A stretch of DNA of 62,649 nucleotides, taken from the IMG/VR virus record IMGVR_UViG_3300018083_000030, positions 1 through 62,649 of that record. One strand, written 5' to 3'. The stretch comes from a virus. The notes beneath the pieces were generated by a model. The model was given only the letters and a program-made list of their open reading frames with translations, was not told where the DNA came from and did no database searches. The position numbers and the translations under genes were made by a program. How positions within the stretch are numbered: the first letter of the stretch is position 1; every line of letters starts with the position of its first letter. Below, in pieces: positions 3,046 to 47,190 of this stretch.

Positions 3046-4347
3046 CTATGCCCCCCAGCGCGAACAGTTGATCGGCACCGGACCAATGAACGGCCCATCG
3101 AAGTTTAGATTCCAGCCGTGATTTTGAAGGTAGGCACAGGCAAGCACCGAAATTTGCATGTTGCTTCCAATCCCCGCGTATGGGCCAAGCATCCCTGTCG
3201 GCGGCGCGGCATTGGGATTGCCGTTGTACGTTGGTGCATTCCAATTGCCGTTGGTTGTGATGTTGCGCATGGCGCACATGCCCAAGCTGGTGTCGATATA
3301 GAATCCCAGCCAATCACCAGACGCGAACGGCGGATAGTTCGCATAGCCCGTTCCGGCGGCGTAAAAAGTTCCTGTACCGCCCCACCCGACCGAATTGGTG
3401 TTTTGTCCGGGGTAATAACTCGACGGGGCCTCAAAGCCCAAATAGGACGCGCCAACCCCAATGATGCAGTTGTTTGAATCGCCCCCGAACGATTGCGCCT
3501 CGAAATACTTGCGGCCGGTGCGCACGTGTGGCTGTGACATGACCGTCCAATAGGCGGCGGTGGCGAAAGTCTTTGTGACGGTCAGATTGTTGTTGCTGAA
3601 CGCAAAGATCGGACCTCCGTTTGCAGCCGGTAGCTGGCGGTGCGGGTCCATGATGGTCTTCGACTCGGCCGCGACCGTGCCGGCAATCGTGGTGCCGGTC
3701 TTGTTGACGCCGTAGAGGTGGAACGTGCCGGCGGTGATGTTGCCGCCGGTGTTCATAATCCGAATCGCGTTGAATGCGCCGGTGTCGAGGATGTAGCTGC
3801 CGCTACCATCAAAGCCGGCGAGGCCATCGGTCGGGTTGCGCAAATGGCTTTTGTAAAAAAACGGTTTGAAGACTCCGGCTATTTGCGGGGTGAAAAATCG
3901 AACGGTGCCGAACACGGAAAATCCTGTTCCCGCCGTGTGCGCTCCCGTGATTTGCAATTGCGCTTGGTTGGCAAAGAAATTGACTGACCCGGCAGCGGCA
4001 TACGGAGCGTAGACTTGGCCCATGTGATAGCTGCTGGCGGCACCCTTGAATGTTGCGCCGCCGTCCTGGCTGATCCTGATCGCGAACGCGCCGTTGGCTG
4101 CACATTGCGCGCCGAAAAAATGCAATTCGTATTCGTCAAAAGTGCCGTCGATTCCCTTTGTGAAATCGACCGCCGCCACCGCGCTCGACACCACGCGCGA
4201 ATCAATCAACACGAGTTGCCCAGCGGGCATGACACCACCCAAGCCGCCGGGATCAATGATCCAGCCCAGACCGTTCCAGCGCCATCGCTTGCCGCCGAAA
4301 TCGTAGGTCTGGCCGACCAGCGGCGAGGCGGGGAAATCTAGCGGCAT
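3046..4347 (-). CDS. Tail fibre with SPRY-like C-terminal domain
   Basis: 433 residues. The N-terminus has the FPASPLVGQ...WNGLGWI anchor module. The middle (about 60-240) is beta-rich. The last about 185 residues look like a B30.2/SPRY fold: VRTGRKYFEAQSF, then CIIGVGASYLGFE, a GSGDWLGFYIDTS-type strand and a C-terminal beta region. SPRY domains bind proteins or sugars and are known in phage fibres, so this is a plausible receptor-binding part. It starts the three-gene fibre block 1774-4347, inserted between the gp45-like spike and gp46. The SPRY call is by eye. Confidence 0.65.
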   Translation of the reverse strand: MPLDFPASPLVGQTYDFGGKRWRWNGLGWIIDPGGLGGVMPAGQLVLIDSRVVSSAVAAVDFTKGIDGTFDEYELHFFGAQCAANGAFAIRISQDGGATFKGAASSYHMGQVYAPYAAAGSVNFFANQAQLQITGAHTAGTGFSVFGTVRFFTPQIAGVFKPFFYKSHLRNPTDGLAGFDGSGSYILDTGAFNAIRIMNTGGNITAGTFHLYGVNKTGTTIAGTVAAESKTIMDPHRQLPAANGGPIFAFSNNNLTVTKTFATAAYWTVMSQPHVRTGRKYFEAQSFGGDSNNCIIGVGASYLGFEAPSSYYPGQNTNSVGWGGTGTFYAAGTGYANYPPFASGDWLGFYIDTSLGMCAMRNITTNGNWNAPTYNGNPNAAPPTGMLGPYAGIGSNMQISVLACAYLQNHGWNLNFDGPFIGPVPINCSRWGA

Positions 4348-26619: not shown

Positions 26620-27951
26620 CTATGCGATGGGCACTTGGGTGACCACCTTCGACAACCGCGTGAGCGCCCAGACCGCAGCGTCGAGTCGATTGGGCGAGCC
26701 ATCGACGGCGCGATCCCACTCCCGACTGAATCCCAACATCTCGGCTTCCAGCTGGTCGAGGCCCCGGCGATGCTTCACCCGGCCTTTTTCATATAGCAGG
26801 GAAATCGGCTCGGCGCGCATGGCCTTGCCGCGCGACGCCGTCACCTCCCGCACCCGGATGATGGAGTCGGCCCGCTTCTGCGCCGCGTGCGCGCGCTCGG
26901 CCGCCTGCCGCACCACGTCCATCACCATATCGCCGCCGAAGTTGCGCTCGACCACGACGTCGTCAGCGTCGAATTCGTCGTGCGCCTTCACCACTTCGTC
27001 GCCCCACTTGCCGGGCGAGGCGTTCACCGTGCGGTCGGCCAGCACCGCGTAGGATCCATCGTTCAACAACGCCGCCACCACGATGCCGACGTCGTCGGCA
27101 CCGCCCGACGGGTCAACCCCGACCGTGACCTGTTCGATGACGTCCTCGGCGACGTCGTCGTGGCGCAGCCATTCATCTTTGAATAGCGCGTTCCCCGGAT
27201 CGAGAATCATTCCGCCCATGAGTTCCTGACGGCCCAGCCGGGTGCCTTCGTAAAGCTCGCGGATCTTGCGCAGGAATGCCGGCGACAGGTGCGCGGCGTT
27301 GTCGTAGGTCGACCCGGTCGTGATCGACACGCCGTCCATCGCGACCAGTTTTTTCATGAACGGAGTCGGGCGCGGCGTGGTGGCGATCAACACCCGGGGC
27401 TTGTCGCCCAGCCGCAGCCCCAGCATCATCATGTCGAAGACCTCTTGCTGGTAGCGCATGCGGCCCAGTTCATCGATCACCGCGAGTTCGCATTGCGGGC
27501 CGCGCAGCGAATCCGGTTCTTCGCCGGAGAACATGACCGCCATGGCACCGTTGGGCCATTCCAGCCGGCGCTTGGATTGCACCCAACGCGGCCGGCCGTC
27601 GCGTGGCGAGGTGGCCAGAATCCCGCTGGTGCCTTCAAGGTTGACGTCGTGGCAATCCGCCGTCGTCGGCGCGATGATGTGGATCCGTTTGATGCCGGCG
27701 CGCACCGCGATGTGAACCGCGCTCGACACCGAATGCGACTTGCCGGTGCCGCGACCGCCCAGGAACAGCCAACACCAGTCGAGATCCACCGGCGGCAGCT
27801 GCGCCGTGCGGGCGGCAAAGATCCAGTCCTCGGCCACGTCGTCGCCCAGCTGGCCGGCGAGCACCTTGCGCTGCGCGTCCGACAACGACGCCACCGCCGC
27901 ACGCGCGTCGTGCATGCGGCGAACTTCGTGCATGAACCGGTCAAGCGCCAT
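26620..27951 (-). CDS. Terminase large subunit
   Basis: 443 residues. ATP-driven DNA packaging motor. Walker A GGRGTGKS (65-72), Walker B ELAVIDELG (about 155-163), coupling motif RVLIATTPRPTP (186-197), and nuclease start VTVGVDPSGGADDVG with Asp280. DDVVVERNFGG carries a second acidic cluster. ATG 27,951 overlaps TerS by 11 bases; a GTG at 27,969 is possible. One of the surest calls in the window. Confidence 0.95.
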   Translation of the reverse strand: MALDRFMHEVRRMHDARAAVASLSDAQRKVLAGQLGDDVAEDWIFAARTAQLPPVDLDWCWLFLGGRGTGKSHSVSSAVHIAVRAGIKRIHIIAPTTADCHDVNLEGTSGILATSPRDGRPRWVQSKRRLEWPNGAMAVMFSGEEPDSLRGPQCELAVIDELGRMRYQQEVFDMMMLGLRLGDKPRVLIATTPRPTPFMKKLVAMDGVSITTGSTYDNAAHLSPAFLRKIRELYEGTRLGRQELMGGMILDPGNALFKDEWLRHDDVAEDVIEQVTVGVDPSGGADDVGIVVAALLNDGSYAVLADRTVNASPGKWGDEVVKAHDEFDADDVVVERNFGGDMVMDVVRQAAERAHAAQKRADSIIRVREVTASRGKAMRAEPISLLYEKGRVKHRRGLDQLEAEMLGFSREWDRAVDGSPNRLDAAVWALTRLSKVVTQVPIA

Positions 27952-28408
27952 TGTTGCCGTCGTCCACAACCTCGCCCTCGATCACCGGGCCGTGCGCCAA
28001 GCGGTCGAGCGCCGCCATGATCTTGTCGGTTGTCGTGGCCGGCTCGGGCCGGCTGTCGTCGCTGATCCCGGCGCGTGGCTGTATGTCGATTCCCAGCATG
28101 CGGGCGCGCCGTTCCATCAACCGGATCACCAGCGCGCAAGCGTCATAGTCGCCTTCCCGCGCCTTGCCGAAATAGATTTGCGTCAGATCGTCCAGCCGCT
28201 CCAGTTCGATTTCGACCGTGCGTGCGCGCAGCGTCGGCGTCACCCCGCCGCACATCCGGGTCAAGCTGCCCTCGACCTCGCCGACCGTGCAATCGAGTTG
28301 GTGGGCAATCTGCCGAACCGGCACGCCGTTCAACCGCAGGCGGAACGCCTTGCGGTCGCGTTCGAACTTGGCGGCGGCATCTTCCCAATTGACAATCTCG
28401 GCGGTCAT
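27941..28408 (-). CDS. Terminase small subunit-like DNA-binding protein
   Basis: 155 residues. HTH-like stretch RLRLNGVPVRQIAHQLDCTVGEVEG (about 23-47) and helices that follow suit a DNA-recognition subunit of the packaging terminase. It sits directly before TerL and overlaps it. Start ATG overlaps the stop of the small gene upstream (ATGA). Confidence 0.7.
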   Translation of the reverse strand: MTAEIVNWEDAAAKFERDRKAFRLRLNGVPVRQIAHQLDCTVGEVEGSLTRMCGGVTPTLRARTVEIELERLDDLTQIYFGKAREGDYDACALVIRLMERRARMLGIDIQPRAGISDDSRPEPATTTDKIMAALDRLAHGPVIEGEVVDDGNNGA

Positions 28409-30096: not shown

Positions 30097-30960
30097 ATGG
30101 CCGAAACCACCAAAATCGAATGGTGCGACTCGACGCTGAATCCCTGGATCGGGTGCCAGAACGTCTCGCCCGGCTGCGAGCATTGCTATGCCGAAGAGAT
30201 GAACGGCTATCGCAAGTGGACGGAATGGGGGCCGCACGGCGTGCGCCGCCGCACCTCGCCGTCGACCTGGGCGAAGGTCAACGACTACGAACGCAACGCC
30301 GCCGCGTTCCAGCGCAAGCACGGCCGCCGGCAACGGGTGTTCTGCGCGTCGCTCGCCGACGTGTTCGACAACAAAGCACCCGACGGCGCGCGCGATGACC
30401 TGTGGCACCTGATCCGCCGGTGCCCGAACGTCGATTTCCTGTTGCTGACCAAGCGACCGCAAAACATCCGCAAGATGCTGCCGGCCGACTGGGGATCGCG
30501 CTTCGGCTACCCGAACGTGTGGCTTGGCACCACGACCGAAGACGCCGAACACTACCAGCAACGCTGGCCGGTGCTCGCCGCCGTGCCCGCGACCATCCGG
30601 TTCATCTCATACGAACCCGCCGTGGGGCCGCTCGGCCCGCTGCAAGTCATGTCGGCGTTGACCGAATACGGTGCGCGCGTGCCCGACTGGGTGATCGCTG
30701 GCGGCGAATCCGGCCCGCGTGCCCGCCGCATGAATCCCGACTGGGCGCGAGCCGCGCGCGATCAATGCGTGCCGCTGGGCGTCGCATTCTTTTTCAAGCA
30801 ATGGGGCAGCTGGCCCAGCAACCCGGCGCGCGAGGCCGACAACCCGCTAAATGGCAAGGGCGGCGGCTTGCTCGACGGCCGGCTGTGGCGCGAATTCCCG
30901 CAACAAAAAACGGCACCGCGCGATGCGATGCCGTTGCAGAATTCGGAGTTGCCGTTTTAG
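30097..30960 (+). CDS. Phage Gp37/Gp68 family (DUF5131) protein, radical-SAM-like Cys motif
   Basis: 287 residues. Family opening IEWCDSTLNPWIGCQNVSPG then CEHCYAE, with Cys spacing of an Fe-S cluster site, followed by RVFCASLADVFDN, DFLLLTKRP, NVWLGTTTED, FISYEPAVGPLG and DWVIAGGESGPRARRM. The fold is related to radical SAM TIM barrels; the reaction is not established. It stands alone behind a terminator, which fits a self-contained accessory (moron-like) gene. Its stop overlaps the stop of a convergent small gene. Confidence 0.85.
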   Translation: MAETTKIEWCDSTLNPWIGCQNVSPGCEHCYAEEMNGYRKWTEWGPHGVRRRTSPSTWAKVNDYERNAAAFQRKHGRRQRVFCASLADVFDNKAPDGARDDLWHLIRRCPNVDFLLLTKRPQNIRKMLPADWGSRFGYPNVWLGTTTEDAEHYQQRWPVLAAVPATIRFISYEPAVGPLGPLQVMSALTEYGARVPDWVIAGGESGPRARRMNPDWARAARDQCVPLGVAFFFKQWGSWPSNPAREADNPLNGKGGGLLDGRLWREFPQQKTAPRDAMPLQNSELPF

Positions 30961-31681: not shown

Positions 31682-32251
31682 ATGCCCGCCACCGTTCACG
31701 ACGACAACCGCCCGATTGAATCGCTGCGCCCAGATCCGCAGAACGCGCGCCGGCACCCGCCGTCGCAGATCACGCAAATTGCCGCCAGCATCAAGCGGTT
31801 CGGCATGGTCGCCCCGCTGGTCATCCGCCCCGACGGGACGCTGATCGGCGGCGAGGCCACGTTGACCGCCTGCAAAAACCTCGGCCACCGCTCGATTGCG
31901 TGCCGTGTGGTCGACGGCCTGTCCGACACGCAATACCGCGCGCTCGGGCTGGCGTTGAATCGCTTGCCGGAGCAATCGACCTGGGATGACGGCTTGCTGG
32001 CGGAAACGCTGCGCGAGCTTGAACGCGAGGACATCGTGGCCGCCGGCTTTTCCGACTCCGACCTTGTGAAGCTCGCCGCCGAACCGGAGCCGATCACGGT
32101 GGAAGAAATCGACACGTCGGTCGTGTTCGATGAATTTTGGATTTCGGTGCGCGGCCCGCTGAAACATCAAGCCGACATGCTGGCCGCGCTGCAAAAGGCG
32201 GCCAAGCAACTCGACGGCGTGACCGTCGACCTCGGGGTGATATCGCTGTGA
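31682..32251 (+). CDS. ParB N-terminal domain (ParB/sulfiredoxin-like) protein
   Basis: 189 residues. Shows the ParB motif series: PIESLRPDPQNARRHPPSQI, QIAASIKRFGMVAPLVI, then GTLIGGEATLTACKNLG (in place of the usual GHRRLxAA) and an HTH-like helix region. Such phage ParB-domain proteins are often nucleases or CTP-dependent regulators, commonly paired with methyltransferases, as here (32,436). The palindrome at 31,631-31,658 may be its own site. Confidence 0.75.
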   Translation: MPATVHDDNRPIESLRPDPQNARRHPPSQITQIAASIKRFGMVAPLVIRPDGTLIGGEATLTACKNLGHRSIACRVVDGLSDTQYRALGLALNRLPEQSTWDDGLLAETLRELEREDIVAAGFSDSDLVKLAAEPEPITVEEIDTSVVFDEFWISVRGPLKHQADMLAALQKAAKQLDGVTVDLGVISL

Positions 32252-40591: not shown

Positions 40592-40688
40592 TTTCGAAAC
40601 TTTTCTTTCGAAATTGACCCGTGGACGGGTTGACGGGGCGAGATTTCTCATTTTCAATTGAAAACGCCGGCCACTGGGATGGCCGGCG
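40592..40688 (+). promoter_or_regulatory. Dense control region before the DndB-like gene
   Basis: Contains TTTCGAAA twice (40,592-40,599 and 40,606-40,613), GACCCGTGGACGGGTTGAC (40,616-40,634), TTTTCAATTGAAAA (40,651-40,664) and a perfect 9-bp hairpin CGCCGGCCA/TGGCCGGCG (40,665-40,673 with 40,680-40,688). TTGACG (40,630-40,635), a 17-base spacer and TTCAAT form a promoter candidate. Confidence 0.55.
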
Positions 40689-40722
40689 CTCCTGCAACCC
40701 GGTCACAACGGAGGGAATCCAC

Positions 40723-42159
40723 ATGACCGCGTCCAACATCATCAACCGCTTCACCCCGCTGTCAACCTACGGCGTGCAATTGCCGTCGCACGTGCTGGTG
40801 AAACCAACCCGGCAGAACCTGCTGACCGAATTCCACCAGTACGGCTACGACGGCGAGCAATTCTTCGGCGTCGCCTTCGTGCAGGGCAACCGCCTGCAAT
40901 TCACCACGGCCATGCCCATGACCGTGCTGCACAAGGTCGCCAAAATCGACCGCGCCGGAGCCGGCTCCAATATCACCTCGCTGCAAAAAGCCGCCAACCG
41001 CCCCAAGATCGCCGGGCATAGCAAAGCCCTGCGCCAGTACCTTGTCGATAACGCCTGCAAAGGGGAGAAGTTTATTTTGCCGGCGTTCGCCATGAACTTC
41101 GGCGATGAGAGTACGACACCGGAAGACGCGCCCAATGCCGTGCTCTGGATCTACGCCCACGAAAACGAGAACTCGACCAACGGCTGGCCCGCCCTGTTCC
41201 AGCTGCCGCGCGGCATCAAATTGGATGCAACCGATGGCGCGCATCGGCTGGACGAATCCGAAAAGATTGTCAGCGACGGCAAGCTGACGGAGGCACAACG
41301 CGAAAACCTCGGGCGCAATGCCTGCGACGTCAAAATCATCTTCGAAAGCAAGCGGATCGACGCCCATCAGGATTTCGCCGATTGCGCCAAGGCCAAGCCG
41401 ATCACCGGCAGCATCATCTCTTCGTTCGATGTGCGCGACTTGCGCAACTCGCAAACCGTGCGGCTGGTGGAGTCGGTCGACTTTTTAAAGCACTACGTCG
41501 ACGCCACCGCCGCAAATGTGAATTTGTCGGCCGGCAGCTTGAAGATCTGGAGCATGTCGGCCGTGCGTGGCTTCGTCGGCCACGTGCAAGACCGCTACCC
41601 GCCACCCGCCGGCGGTGACGCCAGCGCCGTCGAATCCACCCTGGTCGAGAAACTGTCGGGCGCACCCCTGTTCTTCGGTGCCATGATTAAACACCTCCCC
41701 CAGCTGCACACCCTGGAACTGGCACGCCTGGAAGCCGAAGCCCGGCGCGCCTGCCCGCAACCGGCACCGCCCGCCGTCCGTACCGAAACCCCCGCCACGT
41801 TCAGGAACAAGCGCGGCGGTGACGTCGCACTCCGCGGAATCGGCATGTCCCTGTTCGCTCGGGCGTTCCTGTACGCCAAGCAACACGGCCTGTCGTTCGA
41901 TCATATCGCCCAACGGTTGGCCGCCGTCGATTGGCACGTGCTCGATTGCGAACGCGACGACTTGCCGAATCCAGCCACCGAAGAAGGCCGCCTCACGTTC
42001 GCCGATGAAGTCCGACGCCACGTCGTCCCAACTTGGACCTCGCTGATCATCGTCGGCGAGTCACGCTATCGCATCGGTTCGTCCAACGACGAAGCGAACG
42101 CCGCCTGGGAGCGCATCAAAGCGGCGCATTTGGATCCTATCGCCGAAGCCGCAGAGTAA
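40723..42159 (+). CDS. DndB-like DGQHR-domain protein
   Basis: 478 residues. DGAHRLDESE (171-180) corresponds to the DGQHR signature of DndB and its relatives. Flanking features also fit: a strand-rich N-terminal part (GEQFFGVAFVQGNRLQFTTA), a VKIIFE strand and a helical C-terminal half. In Dnd systems DndB represses the phosphorothioation operon. No DndA, C, D or E gene is in the window, so here it could regulate transcription, counter a host Dnd system or act alone. Start ATG has SD GGAGGGAAT. Followed by a terminator, so it is its own transcription unit with an unusually rich control region. Confidence 0.7.
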   Translation: MTASNIINRFTPLSTYGVQLPSHVLVKPTRQNLLTEFHQYGYDGEQFFGVAFVQGNRLQFTTAMPMTVLHKVAKIDRAGAGSNITSLQKAANRPKIAGHSKALRQYLVDNACKGEKFILPAFAMNFGDESTTPEDAPNAVLWIYAHENENSTNGWPALFQLPRGIKLDATDGAHRLDESEKIVSDGKLTEAQRENLGRNACDVKIIFESKRIDAHQDFADCAKAKPITGSIISSFDVRDLRNSQTVRLVESVDFLKHYVDATAANVNLSAGSLKIWSMSAVRGFVGHVQDRYPPPAGGDASAVESTLVEKLSGAPLFFGAMIKHLPQLHTLELARLEAEARRACPQPAPPAVRTETPATFRNKRGGDVALRGIGMSLFARAFLYAKQHGLSFDHIAQRLAAVDWHVLDCERDDLPNPATEEGRLTFADEVRRHVVPTWTSLIIVGESRYRIGSSNDEANAAWERIKAAHLDPIAEAAE

Positions 42160-43261: not shown

Positions 43262-43522
43262 GTGACGCAGTGACGGGTAGATCGGAACCAACCTTTTCCG
43301 GGCGCGTGCGCAGGCACGCATATGCTATGTGTCACACCTGTCACAAGTGTCACAACCGGCATTCTGCCGGCCTTACTTGGGTGACGGGTTAGGTGACGGG
43401 GTGACGGATGACGCGGTGCACAATGCAATTCTAGGTGACAAACATTTTCGCTTTCGATCATTATCACGTCACACCTGTCACACCCGTCACCGGCCGCGCC
43501 GGATTCGTGACGGGTTGGTGAC
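43262..43522. repeat. Iteron-like array of GTGAC/GTCAC words
   Basis: Fourteen copies in 261 bases: GTGAC at 43262, 43270, 43381, 43393, 43401, 43435, 43507 and 43518; GTCAC at 43331, 43340, 43349, 43468, 43477 and 43486. The two GTCAC triplets are phased at exactly 9 bp (TGTCACAMS units at 43,330-43,356); the last pair is an exact 11-bp repeat GTGACGGGTTG. Suits an origin or a multi-site regulator. Confidence 0.65.
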
Positions 43523-43576
43523 GGGTTGGGCTGTTTCCACTAACGCCGTTTCTTAAACCAGCATGTGAGGTTGACG

Positions 43577-43867
43577 ATGAACACGAGCGAATGGGAGCGC
43601 CGGGCCGACGCTGGCGATGGGCAGTTCGCGATTGCGTTGGCTTTGCTGCGCGTGGTGTCGGCCATTCACTTGCTGGGCGACGGCACAGCTGGGTTCACCG
43701 AATCCGGCTCGATCAAAGAAACGCCGGGCGCGCTGGCGAACTTCGGCCGGCGCTTGTGCGATGCCTTGGACAGCGTAGGGACGAACATGCCGACGCACCT
43801 CGACGTGACCGTGTCGGTGGACGACGAGAGCGAGCCGCAGACCGTGGTGATCAAGAAGTCCGACTAG
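43577..43867 (+). CDS. Small hypothetical protein beside the repeat array
   Basis: 96 residues: MNTSEWERRADAGDGQFAIA, LALLRVVSAIHLLGDG, PTHLDVTVSVDDESEPQTVV. SD GAGG. Its stop overlaps the stop of the convergent helicase gene. Its place next to the iterons is suggestive of replication control, but there is no motif. Confidence 0.55.
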   Translation: MNTSEWERRADAGDGQFAIALALLRVVSAIHLLGDGTAGFTESGSIKETPGALANFGRRLCDALDSVGTNMPTHLDVTVSVDDESEPQTVVIKKSD

Positions 43868-45297
43868 GCTGACATTGCCCCGATATCCATCAAGCGAATG
43901 CCGTGAAAGCCCCGGCCGGCGTTGTCGTGATAGCGTGCGAGGCCCTTGGCTTCGAGGCGGTCCACGAATTTTTTCATGCTATCCGACCGCTCGCCGACGG
44001 CCTCGCAAAACAGCTTCCATGAATTGAACAGTGCGGTTGATGTGGTTTTAGCGTTGGGATCGGCGAGCGAGCACCGCTGATCGAGCCATTGCTGCAACAA
44101 GTCCTGATTGTCGAAGTAGCTTTCGGTTGCGCCCAACACCGATGCGGGCGGATCGAGGCCGCGCTCCCGCCACGCGACATAGCCGTCGAGCACCCATCCC
44201 AAAATGGCCGGCCGTTCCAGGGCGAGCTTATCGGCCAGCGTGCGGTCGAGTTCGTCCTCGCTGATCGTGACGGTGAACGGTATCAGGTGCAGCCGGCGGC
44301 GCATGGCGCGGTCGACGTTGCGCAACGACGGCTTGTTGTTTCCGACCACCACTATCTTGAACTGCGGCAGGTATTCGAACGAATTGCTGTGCATGAAGTT
44401 GGCGCGCACCGGATCGCCGCCGGTCAGCGTCTTGATCTTGGCTTCGTTCCAGCCGCCCTCGCCGGTTTCCGCTGTGAGCAACAACCGCACGCCGCGCATG
44501 GCGGCCAATTCTTCCTTGTGTTGCGGTTTCTTGGTCGCCGCGAACATCTCGAGCGACGCTTGCGAAGCATACGTTCCCAACACCGCTTTGAGCGTGTTCA
44601 GGAACGTGCCTTTGCCGTTGCCGCCGGTGCCGTAGCAAAAGAAAAAGCTCTGTTCGTGGGTGAACGGGGTGGCGCAATAGCCGGCCATACGTTGCAGGTA
44701 CGCAATCAACTCGGCGTCGCCGGCGGTGATCTTGTCGAGAAACGCCAGCCATGTCGGGCACGCGCCGCGCTCGGCGGTGACGCCGGCCATCTTCGAACAG
44801 AAGTCCTCCCGCCGCTGCGGCCCCAGCGTCCAGCCGTGCGCGCCGTTGGCCTTCATGCTGACCGTGGCCGTGGTCATGTTGAACACCTCGGCCTTGTCGA
44901 AGTGATCGACCGGCACGGCCACCAGATGGCGCGTGCGTTTGGCGCAAGACGTCAAAAAACCGACGTCCTCCAGCCGGGTCTTTGGTTTGGGTTTCTTCTG
45001 CGCCCGACTGATTTCGCAACAGAGTTCGCCCAGATTGTTTTCGAGCGTGCACCGCTGGTCGTCCTCCCAGACGTGCCCAGTCCAGTGAAAATCGCCCATC
45101 TTCTTGAAGAACAGGAATTGATCCCCGCGCCGGGCCATGAAGATCTTCACCACGGCGTCGTGGGTCAGTAGCCAGTTCGGTGCCAGCCATGGATCCGGCT
45201 CCGGGGCCTCGACGCCGTCGCGTTGAACTATGCGCAACGCTGGCCGCTCCCGTTCCCGCTCGCCCGACGTGCCGCCGTCGTCATCCTGATCGGCCAT
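43864..45297 (-). CDS. Phage/plasmid primase-type SF3 helicase (P4 alpha/D5 family)
   Basis: 477 residues. Helicase for phage DNA replication. N-terminal D5-like domain, Walker A GTGGNGKG (223-230), ELAAMRGVRLLLTAETGEG with Walker B region, FKIVVVGNNKPSLRNVDRAM with sensor Asn, and RRRLHLIPFTVTI with the arginine finger. Separate small genes upstream supply the primase zinc and Toprim parts. Confidence 0.9.
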   Translation of the reverse strand: MADQDDDGGTSGERERERPALRIVQRDGVEAPEPDPWLAPNWLLTHDAVVKIFMARRGDQFLFFKKMGDFHWTGHVWEDDQRCTLENNLGELCCEISRAQKKPKPKTRLEDVGFLTSCAKRTRHLVAVPVDHFDKAEVFNMTTATVSMKANGAHGWTLGPQRREDFCSKMAGVTAERGACPTWLAFLDKITAGDAELIAYLQRMAGYCATPFTHEQSFFFCYGTGGNGKGTFLNTLKAVLGTYASQASLEMFAATKKPQHKEELAAMRGVRLLLTAETGEGGWNEAKIKTLTGGDPVRANFMHSNSFEYLPQFKIVVVGNNKPSLRNVDRAMRRRLHLIPFTVTISEDELDRTLADKLALERPAILGWVLDGYVAWRERGLDPPASVLGATESYFDNQDLLQQWLDQRCSLADPNAKTTSTALFNSWKLFCEAVGERSDSMKKFVDRLEAKGLARYHDNAGRGFHGIRLMDIGAMSA

Positions 45298-45306
45298 GAA
45301 TCGCCT

Positions 45307-45963
45307 CTAAAGGTCGGCATGTTCCGCCGCCTGCGCCGCCACCAGATCCGCAAAGTCCGTCCCCACCGCCGACGTGGTGATCGCGCTCGCCCGCCAGCCC
45401 CATGTCAGCTTGACCGCTGCGGCCGCGCGCTCGCCGGCCTTCGACTCGTCGTTGTCGAACGCCACCACGACGCGACCGACGAACCACAACAGCGGCAACC
45501 GCTCGACCGCGCCCGCGCTCCCCAGCGCCCACACCGGCGCGTAGCCCAGCTGCAACAAGGCCAAGCCCGTCTCGAATCCCTCGCACACGTGCAAGACCGG
45601 CGCGTAAAAGTTCGCCGCACCGCAGCACGTCGCCCGATGTGACGTGAGCTTCATGGCCGCGCCCGCGACCGGCCCCAGCATCATTGGCTGCTGTAACTTT
45701 TTGAAATCCGGCGTGATGTAGATGCGCTGAATCGCGACCGGGGTGTCGCCTTCCATGCGCCGGAACAGCACGACCAGCGCCGGGCACGTGCCGCCCTGGC
45801 GCGGACACTCCGGCAGGAACCGGACCACCTCGCCGTCAAGCTCGCCCGGCAACGCCAGCCCGCGCATGGCGAGGTAATACTCGCCGGCCGTGCCGCGCAC
45901 GTCGCTGGCCCGGTCCCAGATCCGCAGCGCACCTTGCGCGCGTTGCCGGTCCTCCGGCGTCAT
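45307..45963 (-). CDS. Toprim-domain primase subunit
   Basis: 218 residues. Starts MTPEDRQRAQGALRIWDRAS (DUF7146-like lead), then HVCEGFETGLALLQLGYAPV with the catalytic Glu, ALGSAGAVERLP, VVVAFDNDESKAGERAA with the DxD-like acidic pair, as in Toprim primases. ATG overlaps the zinc-domain gene stop (ATGA). Together they make up what is usually one primase. Confidence 0.8.
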   Translation of the reverse strand: MTPEDRQRAQGALRIWDRASDVRGTAGEYYLAMRGLALPGELDGEVVRFLPECPRQGGTCPALVVLFRRMEGDTPVAIQRIYITPDFKKLQQPMMLGPVAGAAMKLTSHRATCCGAANFYAPVLHVCEGFETGLALLQLGYAPVWALGSAGAVERLPLLWFVGRVVVAFDNDESKAGERAAAAVKLTWGWRASAITTSAVGTDFADLVAAQAAEHADL

Positions 45964-46205
45964 GGGTGCGCCCCCCGCCCGTTCTTGTGGGAGCGTGTGG
46001 GTCGTGCGTCCCACAAGCCGCGCGCCCGGAACGCCGCGATCACGTCGCCGGCCTCGCACCCGGCCCAGCATTTCACCAGCACGGTGGAATCCCCTTGGGT
46101 GAACGAACACGACGGCGAGCGGTCTTCGTGCGCCGGGCAACAACAGATCCAATACTTGCCGCACCGTTTCGCTTTCACCCGCCTTGCCAGTTCGTTAGCC
46201 GTCAT
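45960..46205 (-). CDS. Primase zinc-binding (CHC2-like) domain protein
   Basis: 81 residues. KYWICCCPAHEDRSPSCSF then VLVKCWAGCEAGDVIAAFR is the CHC2 primase zinc finger, which positions the primase on its template. Here it is a separate gene, coupled to the Toprim gene by an ATGA overlap and to the gene before it by another. Confidence 0.8.
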   Translation of the reverse strand: MTANELARRVKAKRCGKYWICCCPAHEDRSPSCSFTQGDSTVLVKCWAGCEAGDVIAAFRARGLWDARPTRSHKNGRGAHP

Positions 46206-46375
46206 GGCTCGCCCTCCGTCTTAGCCGTGTTAATTTTTTCGTCCGCGTGCGAGGGGCGCGGAAGCCGCCGGATCATCTCTTCCAACAGCAACAGGTGATC
46301 GTTGCGAAACCACACCGCCGCCGCCCGCCGCAGCGCGTCCACCAGTTCGGCCGTGGGCATGTCGCGCACCGTCAT
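46202..46375 (-). CDS. Small helical protein in primase operon
   Basis: 57 residues: MTVRDMPTAELVDALRRAAA, VWFRNDHLLLLEEMIRRLPR. ATGA overlaps on both sides. Not recognised. Confidence 0.55.
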   Translation of the reverse strand: MTVRDMPTAELVDALRRAAAVWFRNDHLLLLEEMIRRLPRPSHADEKINTAKTEGEP

Positions 46376-46788
46376 GCCGAGATCCTCGCCGGGATCACCC
46401 GCCAGCGGTGCAGCGCGTCGAAAACGTCCTTCATGTCGTCGCACAGCGCGTAGCCGTGCCCGGCCTTGATCAACCGGAACGCCACCGCCTTTTGCGGATC
46501 GCTCGCCTTGCTGCCGGCCCGCTTCAATTCGAGAAACGCCACCGGCCCGTTGATGTGAAAGAATTGGAAGTCCGGCCAACCGGGTTGAACGCCCATGCGT
46601 TTCAACCGCCCGGCCGTCGCCGGGGTGCGATATTCGCCGGCCGGGAAATGCGTCCACGTCCACTCGGTCGAGCACCAGCGCGTCAACACGTCGGCCACGA
46701 TGCAGTGCAGCTTGAATTCGTCCACCGCCGGCAACGCAACCCCGCGCTGGCGCTTGCCTTTGAACAGGTGCAGCTGCGCCGGCCCCAT
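46372..46788 (-). CDS. VRR-NUC domain nuclease
   Basis: 138 residues. RMGVQPGWPDFQFFHINGPV, AFLELKRAGSKASDPQKAVA carries the PD-(D/E)xK nuclease core (PD...ELKR...Q) of VRR-NUC proteins, which act as Holliday-junction or flap nucleases. In the replication operon before the primase parts. Confidence 0.8.
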   Translation of the reverse strand: MGPAQLHLFKGKRQRGVALPAVDEFKLHCIVADVLTRWCSTEWTWTHFPAGEYRTPATAGRLKRMGVQPGWPDFQFFHINGPVAFLELKRAGSKASDPQKAVAFRLIKAGHGYALCDDMKDVFDALHRWRVIPARISA

Positions 46789-46792
46789 GCCG

Positions 46793-47083
46793 TCACCTCG
46801 CCCGGGTCCGATGCTTGCTACGGGTAGCGGGTCGCTTGCGCTTGACCGCTATCGCTCGCGGCTTCTTGGCGTGACCATTGAGCCGGCGCGTGATCGGATT
46901 GCCGCACAGCTTCAATCGATCAATGCCGGCGACGTGGTCGAGCACGCATGCCATCTCCCACGTCACCCACCCGCGCCGCTTGGCGAGGTGCACCGCATTC
47001 TGCGAATAACCGATGGCCGCCGCCAACTTGGCCTCGGAACCATAGGAGGCGATTGCTGCCTCTAGCAGCCGTCGTGCCGACAT
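46793..47083 (-). CDS. Cro/YdaS-like HTH regulator
   Basis: 96 residues. LLEAAIASYGSEAKLAAAIG, then YSQNAVHLAKRRGWVTWEMA is a YdaS/Cro HTH; the tail is very basic. It faces the recombination operon across a 174-base gap containing the AACCCG-N3-CGGGTT palindrome, so it is the best candidate for the protein binding that site, here and at the other copies. Confidence 0.65.
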   Translation of the reverse strand: MSARRLLEAAIASYGSEAKLAAAIGYSQNAVHLAKRRGWVTWEMACVLDHVAGIDRLKLCGNPITRRLNGHAKKPRAIAVKRKRPATRSKHRTRAR

Positions 47084-47190
47084 GTTGGAACTCGCGTTTG
47101 ATTGACCGGATTCGCCGCGCCGATATAAGGCGCACAAGTCCGCAGCAGATTCAATAGGCCGGCGGTTCGTCCACACTAACCCACAGCCCC

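Follow-up and report, generated by a model that had tools for sequence, protein, structure and literature searches.

What is the function of a dense array of short repeats that lies between positions 43262 and 43522 of a 62.6-kb virus contig? The contig is an IMG/VR record, and the whole of it (62,649 nt, hereafter the window) was analysed. By word count, the 261 bp of the array contain eight copies of GTGAC and six of GTCAC, which are the 14 copies reported in a preliminary description made from the letters alone. Because the window as a whole contains 147 copies, 0.61 would be expected per 261 bp. The second-densest place in the window has only four, so that the word is not equally common elsewhere. 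The cluster score of the array (-log10 p = 14.2) is the best of all 5-mers and exceeds those of all 40 first-order Markov simulations, which had a mean of 7.1 and a maximum of 11.2. Two triplets with exact 9-bp phasing had also been described; both are present, at 43331-43353 and 43468-43490, and none was found in 100 shuffles.

Read on the plus strand, the units form about five sets, in the order two forward, three reverse, three forward (followed by a single forward copy), three reverse, and two forward. The outer set (43262-43274, plus strand) consists of two GTGAC units with 8-bp spacing. It is inverted relative to the set at 43331-43353 (minus strand), in which three GTCAC units, equivalent to GTGAC on the helicase strand, are spaced by exactly 9 bp. 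These two sets face each other across an alternating purine-pyrimidine tract at 43302-43325, a Z-DNA-prone spacer element made up of 11 nt (43302-43312) and 12 nt (43314-43325) with one slip. A plus-strand set of three GTGAC units at 43381-43405 departs from 9-bp phasing, its spacings being 12 and 8 bp. It is followed by an AT-rich spacer (43406-43467; 56.5% AT vs 36.5% for the window) that includes a single GTGAC at 43435 and is a candidate melting region, and then by three GTCAC units at exactly 9 bp (43468-43490, minus strand). The array is closed, as previously described, by an exact 11-bp pair: GTGACGGGTTG occurs at 43507-43517 and again at 43518-43528 (plus strand, 11-bp spacing), forming the set closest to the helicase gene. 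Opposed iteron sets flank the AT-rich spacer and also the interval 43275-43330 (41% AT), which contains the alternating tract. The array therefore has the two iteron sets around an AT-rich, putative melting region that characterize origins of the SaPI/PICI type. The DnaA box that would be expected of a DnaA-dependent plasmid iteron origin (TTWTNCACA) does not occur in the window, and a search of Rfam gave no match.

Three genes on the minus strand run towards the array: a VRR-NUC-like gene (46372-46788), a DUF7146 + Toprim_3 primase gene (45307-46164, profile match) in the operon of the helicase, and the helicase gene itself (43864-45297; D5_N + DUF5906, Pfam PF08706/PF19263 above cut-off). 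This places the array 3' of the helicase gene. The earlier placement beside the helicase/primase operon holds in that the array adjoins the operon, but it does so at the 3' end of the helicase gene and not on the upstream or promoter side. Judged by its sequence, the helicase is a D5/SF3 protein of the self-loading type, and short iterons directly 3' of the gene for such a helicase are a further feature of SaPI/PICI-type origins. The distance from the helicase stop codon to the array is 342 bp, and an orphan ORF of 100 aa (43565-43867, plus strand) lies between them. This ORF matches no family, and none of the fetched loci contains a relative; it appears to be an insertion beside an otherwise conserved array-helicase pair. 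Genes of RecE/YqaJ type and RecT type, a tyrosine integrase gene and a DndB-like gene are also nearby. The last of these (40621-42159, plus strand; PF14072, E 4e-22) is a phage-borne gene upstream of the array region. Genes for terminase, portal, major head, tail sheath and tail fibre proteins are found in the window, far to the left of the array.

The best-supported reading is that the array is a phage replication origin with initiator-binding iterons, as the preliminary description had suggested. In the form preferred here, to which we give a probability of about 0.82, the GTGAC iterons would be bound by the D5-type SF3 helicase, encoded by the gene that ends a few hundred bp from the array, through its C-terminal winged helix. 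The inverted iteron sets would seat two hexamers, face to face across a short AT-rich or Z-prone spacer; the helicases would then melt the spacer and unwind it bidirectionally, after which the Toprim primase encoded alongside and the host polymerase would act. The helicase itself is the probable initiator because the array is 3' of its gene, as in SaPI/PICI and P4. A change in GC skew, which had been named as a check, is not seen at the array. A temperate phage with such a layout need not display one. Besides the missing skew change, the orphan ORF that interrupts the array-helicase pair, the uneven spacing of the 43381-43405 set and the slip in the alternating tract speak against this reading.

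The proposed iteron reader is a C-terminal winged-helix domain predicted in AlphaFold2 models at about residues 396-470 (43888-44112, minus strand). In Foldseek, the best matches of this region were the RFX winged helix 1dp7 and the tail of AsfvPrimPol, with weak E-values. A PDB sequence search with the helicase gave 7ola, described as the SaPI5 primase-helicase, as best match, and the model of the whole helicase aligned with SF3 primase-helicases including 7ola at TM 0.66/0.70. The window helicase used alone as query found no close viral relative. Across loci, association of the iteron word with the C-terminal domain compared with the ATPase core was slight (partial r 0.12; 53/500 permutations).

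IMG/VR was scanned for three 9-bp-phased GTCACA units with no protein criterion, giving at least 120 loci. Among the matches listed, a D5 helicase related to that of the window was present in 31/120, against 1/92 for a permuted control word (Fisher 8e-8), the control total of 92 hits not being comparable with the at least 120 loci of the GTCACA pattern. The array was at the 3' end of the D5 gene in 25 of these 31, and grouping by related array regions left 17 independent clusters among the matches listed, 13 of them with the array 3'. A control with 10-bp spacing likewise returned arrays and was thus a poor one, for which reason the permuted word was used. Viral contigs often contain such 10-bp-phased GTCACA arrays (L123-L242; at least 120), with D5 helicases in only 6/120 of those listed. 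Raw hits are inflated by Gly-Val-Thr collagen-like coding repeats, which imitate 9-bp GTGAC (judged by eye, for example, in L091, L414, L493 and L548, and suspected in L055, L106, L109 and L114); since these loci were kept in the 31/120 tally, it is conservative. A more stringent pattern, in which three units are followed after 55-85 bp by two inverted units, was searched for in bacterial and archaeal assemblies, one genome per species. It was found at 113 places in several phyla, a few of which may be collagen-like coding repeats, where simple base counting predicts about 0.01. At two loci (L010 334-454 and L066 11073-11193) the final 5% of the helicase coding sequence contains the array, and origin and gene end would overlap.

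The test from the protein side is decisive, because loci were chosen by helicase sequence only and the detector is independent of the word. The 800 bp around the stop codon of each helicase gene were scanned for any 5-mer repeated at a given lag together with its reverse complement at the same lag, 30-150 bp away. Inverted lag-9 sets were detected at D5 genes in 12/28 nonredundant loci and in 0/200 windows elsewhere in the same loci (Fisher 1e-12); this exact-match detector misses diverged iterons, which can be made out by eye in most of the other D5 loci. Lags of 7, 8, 10, 11 and 12 gave 0, 0, 1, 0 and 0 matches at D5 genes. At VapE genes, lag 8 was found in 10/36 and lag 9 in 8/36 (controls 0/243). 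The VapE-type phages (for example L609, at about 4170-4330, and L615-L694, many of them Pseudomonas-like) combine 8-bp and 9-bp phasing with GTCCC-, CAAC- and other words.

In 25/28 D5 loci vs 3/458 controls, purines and pyrimidines alternate strictly over a run of 14 nt or more that lies no more than 400 bp 3' of the stop codon; the control windows are mostly coding, and unrelated viral loci gave 34/1932, still far under 25/28. The median run length over all 28 D5 loci is 20. Most of the runs are located at +45 to +90, and nearly all loci having iteron sets show the run between the sets; the two runs of the window, one base apart, likewise sit between the 43331 triplet and the 43262 pair. Alternating runs are rarer in VapE loci (9/36 vs 3/577 controls). 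Three loci (L338, L362 and L351) have a near-perfect inverted repeat in the spacer instead of the alternating tract, which recalls the stem-loop origin of pRN1. Alternating CG/CA runs are the classic class of sequence able to adopt Z-DNA under negative supercoiling, and the tract described here may do so.

Comparison with relatives, which had been proposed as a further check, showed that the array, or its equivalent in another word, is kept beside the same gene. The helicases of the two nearest relatives, L695 and L696, are 58-59% identical to that of the window. In the 450 bp after the stop codon, L695 has nine GTGAC/GTCAC and no CTGAC/GTCAG, whereas L696 has no GTGAC/GTCAC and 11 CTGAC/GTCAG; the same region of the window has no CTGAC/GTCAG. 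All copies have been replaced while the layout was kept, as would be expected if a single sequence-specific binding protein exerted selection. The primase gene of AcaML1, the closest relative in culture, is followed directly on its 3' side by three copies of CTGACGGGT, an alternating tract and an inverted set; the word of AcaML1 is also CTGAC and its spacer is CG-alternating. Comparable layouts in other words are found in cultured phages, namely Pseudomonas vB_Pae_U5 (GTCCCA), Clostridioides phiCDKH02 (TGTCAACA) and Marinobacter PS3 (GGTCA). No such array was found in Arthrobacter phage Bridgette, Bacteroides phage BF503P2 or Bordetella phage BIP-1, the last having neither a GTGAC array nor phased words. 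Taken as sequence, then, the layout recurs beside such helicases in many unrelated phages and prophages, with varying words and often a seemingly Z-DNA-prone middle.

A multi-site operator, at which a phage repressor or activator would bind GTGAC cooperatively and control the small gene beside the array, the end of the early operon, or both, is unlikely. On both strands a weak sigma-70-like match does overlap the array, and a gene for an HTH regulator (weak match) lies close by, at 46793-47176 on the minus strand. However, arrays track the 3' end of the helicase gene in unrelated phages, where no helicase promoter lies, and they persist where the 100-aa gene is missing, as it is in all the fetched relatives. 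We know of no operator with opposed 9-bp sets around a Z-prone spacer.

It is slightly less probable still that the array is an origin whose iterons are read by a separate small initiator or a host protein and not by the helicase. Among the listed loci of the GTCACA scan, other arrays are 3' of VapE, DUF3987 or AAA_25 helicases, and with the same layout next to these the iteron reader might not always be the helicase. A conserved host protein is nevertheless difficult to reconcile with a word that differs between close relatives, and the clusters inspected by hand (the larger ones) shared helicase and packaging genes but no small DNA-binding gene. Moreover, reading of iterons by the helicase itself is known for SaPI Rep, P4 alpha and Cch2.

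A packaging site (cos/pac) bound by the small terminase is very improbable: the array is between the helicase and terminase genes in some relatives, but the recurrent neighbour across loci is the helicase, and in the window the array is not next to the terminase genes, the large terminase gene (TerL, 26620-27969) being about 16 kb away. Least probable of all is a parS-like centromere for partition of a plasmid-like prophage, since the ParB_N-like protein that might suggest it (31682-32251, plus strand; E 3e-5, below the Pfam cut-off) is encoded 12 kb from the array, close to a DUF5131 gene, the scanned proteins included no ParA, and the tyrosine integrase suits an integrating phage. The DUF5131 gene (30097-30960, plus strand) ends about 0.7 kb before the ParB_N-like gene.

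Beyond the origin proposed for this phage, the recurrence raises the possibility of a widespread origin class that serves several helicase families. In such a class, inverted 8-/9-bp iterons would surround a conserved alternating tract acting as a Z-DNA opening or helicase-loading element, and the word would drift with the initiator. This broader proposal is tentative, and we consider it somewhat less probable than its negation. The replication origins of most phages are unannotated, and no prior description of the motif in phages was found in the open-licence literature. The layout suggests a word-independent rule for finding origins, namely to look just 3' of a D5 or VapE helicase gene for inverted 9-bp iterons around an alternating tract. 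L695 and L696 provide a natural word-swap pair for how a self-loading helicase reads DNA, and a testable role of Z-prone DNA in origin opening is raised.

The reading of the array as a helicase-bound iteron origin of a full-size phage is based on the match of its layout to the origins of SaPI/PICI Rep, P4 crr and Cch2. The pRN1 plasmid and phage BIP-1 are less similar: an origin-like element is found 3' of an SF3 + winged-helix gene (PMC4234260), but it is a 100-nt stem-loop without iterons. Cch2 of SCCmec is, like the window helicase, of the D5 family, and it uses its C-terminal domain to bind 5-nt direct repeats (AAGTG) that lie immediately downstream of the cch2 gene (PMC7581432); it differs in that there are only three iterons, in a chromosomal cassette, and the origin is putative. 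P4 shares 9-bp iterons and an inverted set 3' of its helicase gene alpha. Its crr starts 46 bp beyond the 3' end of alpha; type I iterons (GGTGAACA) spaced by 9 bp come first, then the inverted set, and crr is AT-rich without an alternating tract (longest run 7). P4 also has a second, distant ori. The units of the array are not P4 type I iterons, the P4 word being GGTGAACA and that of the array GTGAC/GTGACGGG. P4 alpha is cited in PMC4234260 as reading its iterons with a winged helix.

The closest parallel is with the SaPI/PICI origins, in which iterons directly 3' of the initiator helicase gene form two sets around a melting region (PMC6092414, PMC7581432). The C-terminal domain of SaPI Rep recognises iterons directly downstream of its own gene, apparently as two hexamers (PMC7581432). 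The window shares iterons 3' of the helicase gene and sets around a spacer, and SaPI5 PriRep is the top PDB match of its helicase by sequence and a strong one by structure. It differs in being a full-size, integrase-bearing tailed phage with five sets and a GTGAC word, and its relatives have a Z-prone tract, not an AT-rich spacer alone. The element is not itself a PICI, which would be a satellite without capsid and tail genes, because the phage has its own virion genes (terminase, portal, head and tail). This origin type was described as unique to PICIs (PMC6092414); the present analysis would extend it to full-size phages and prophages of many phyla.
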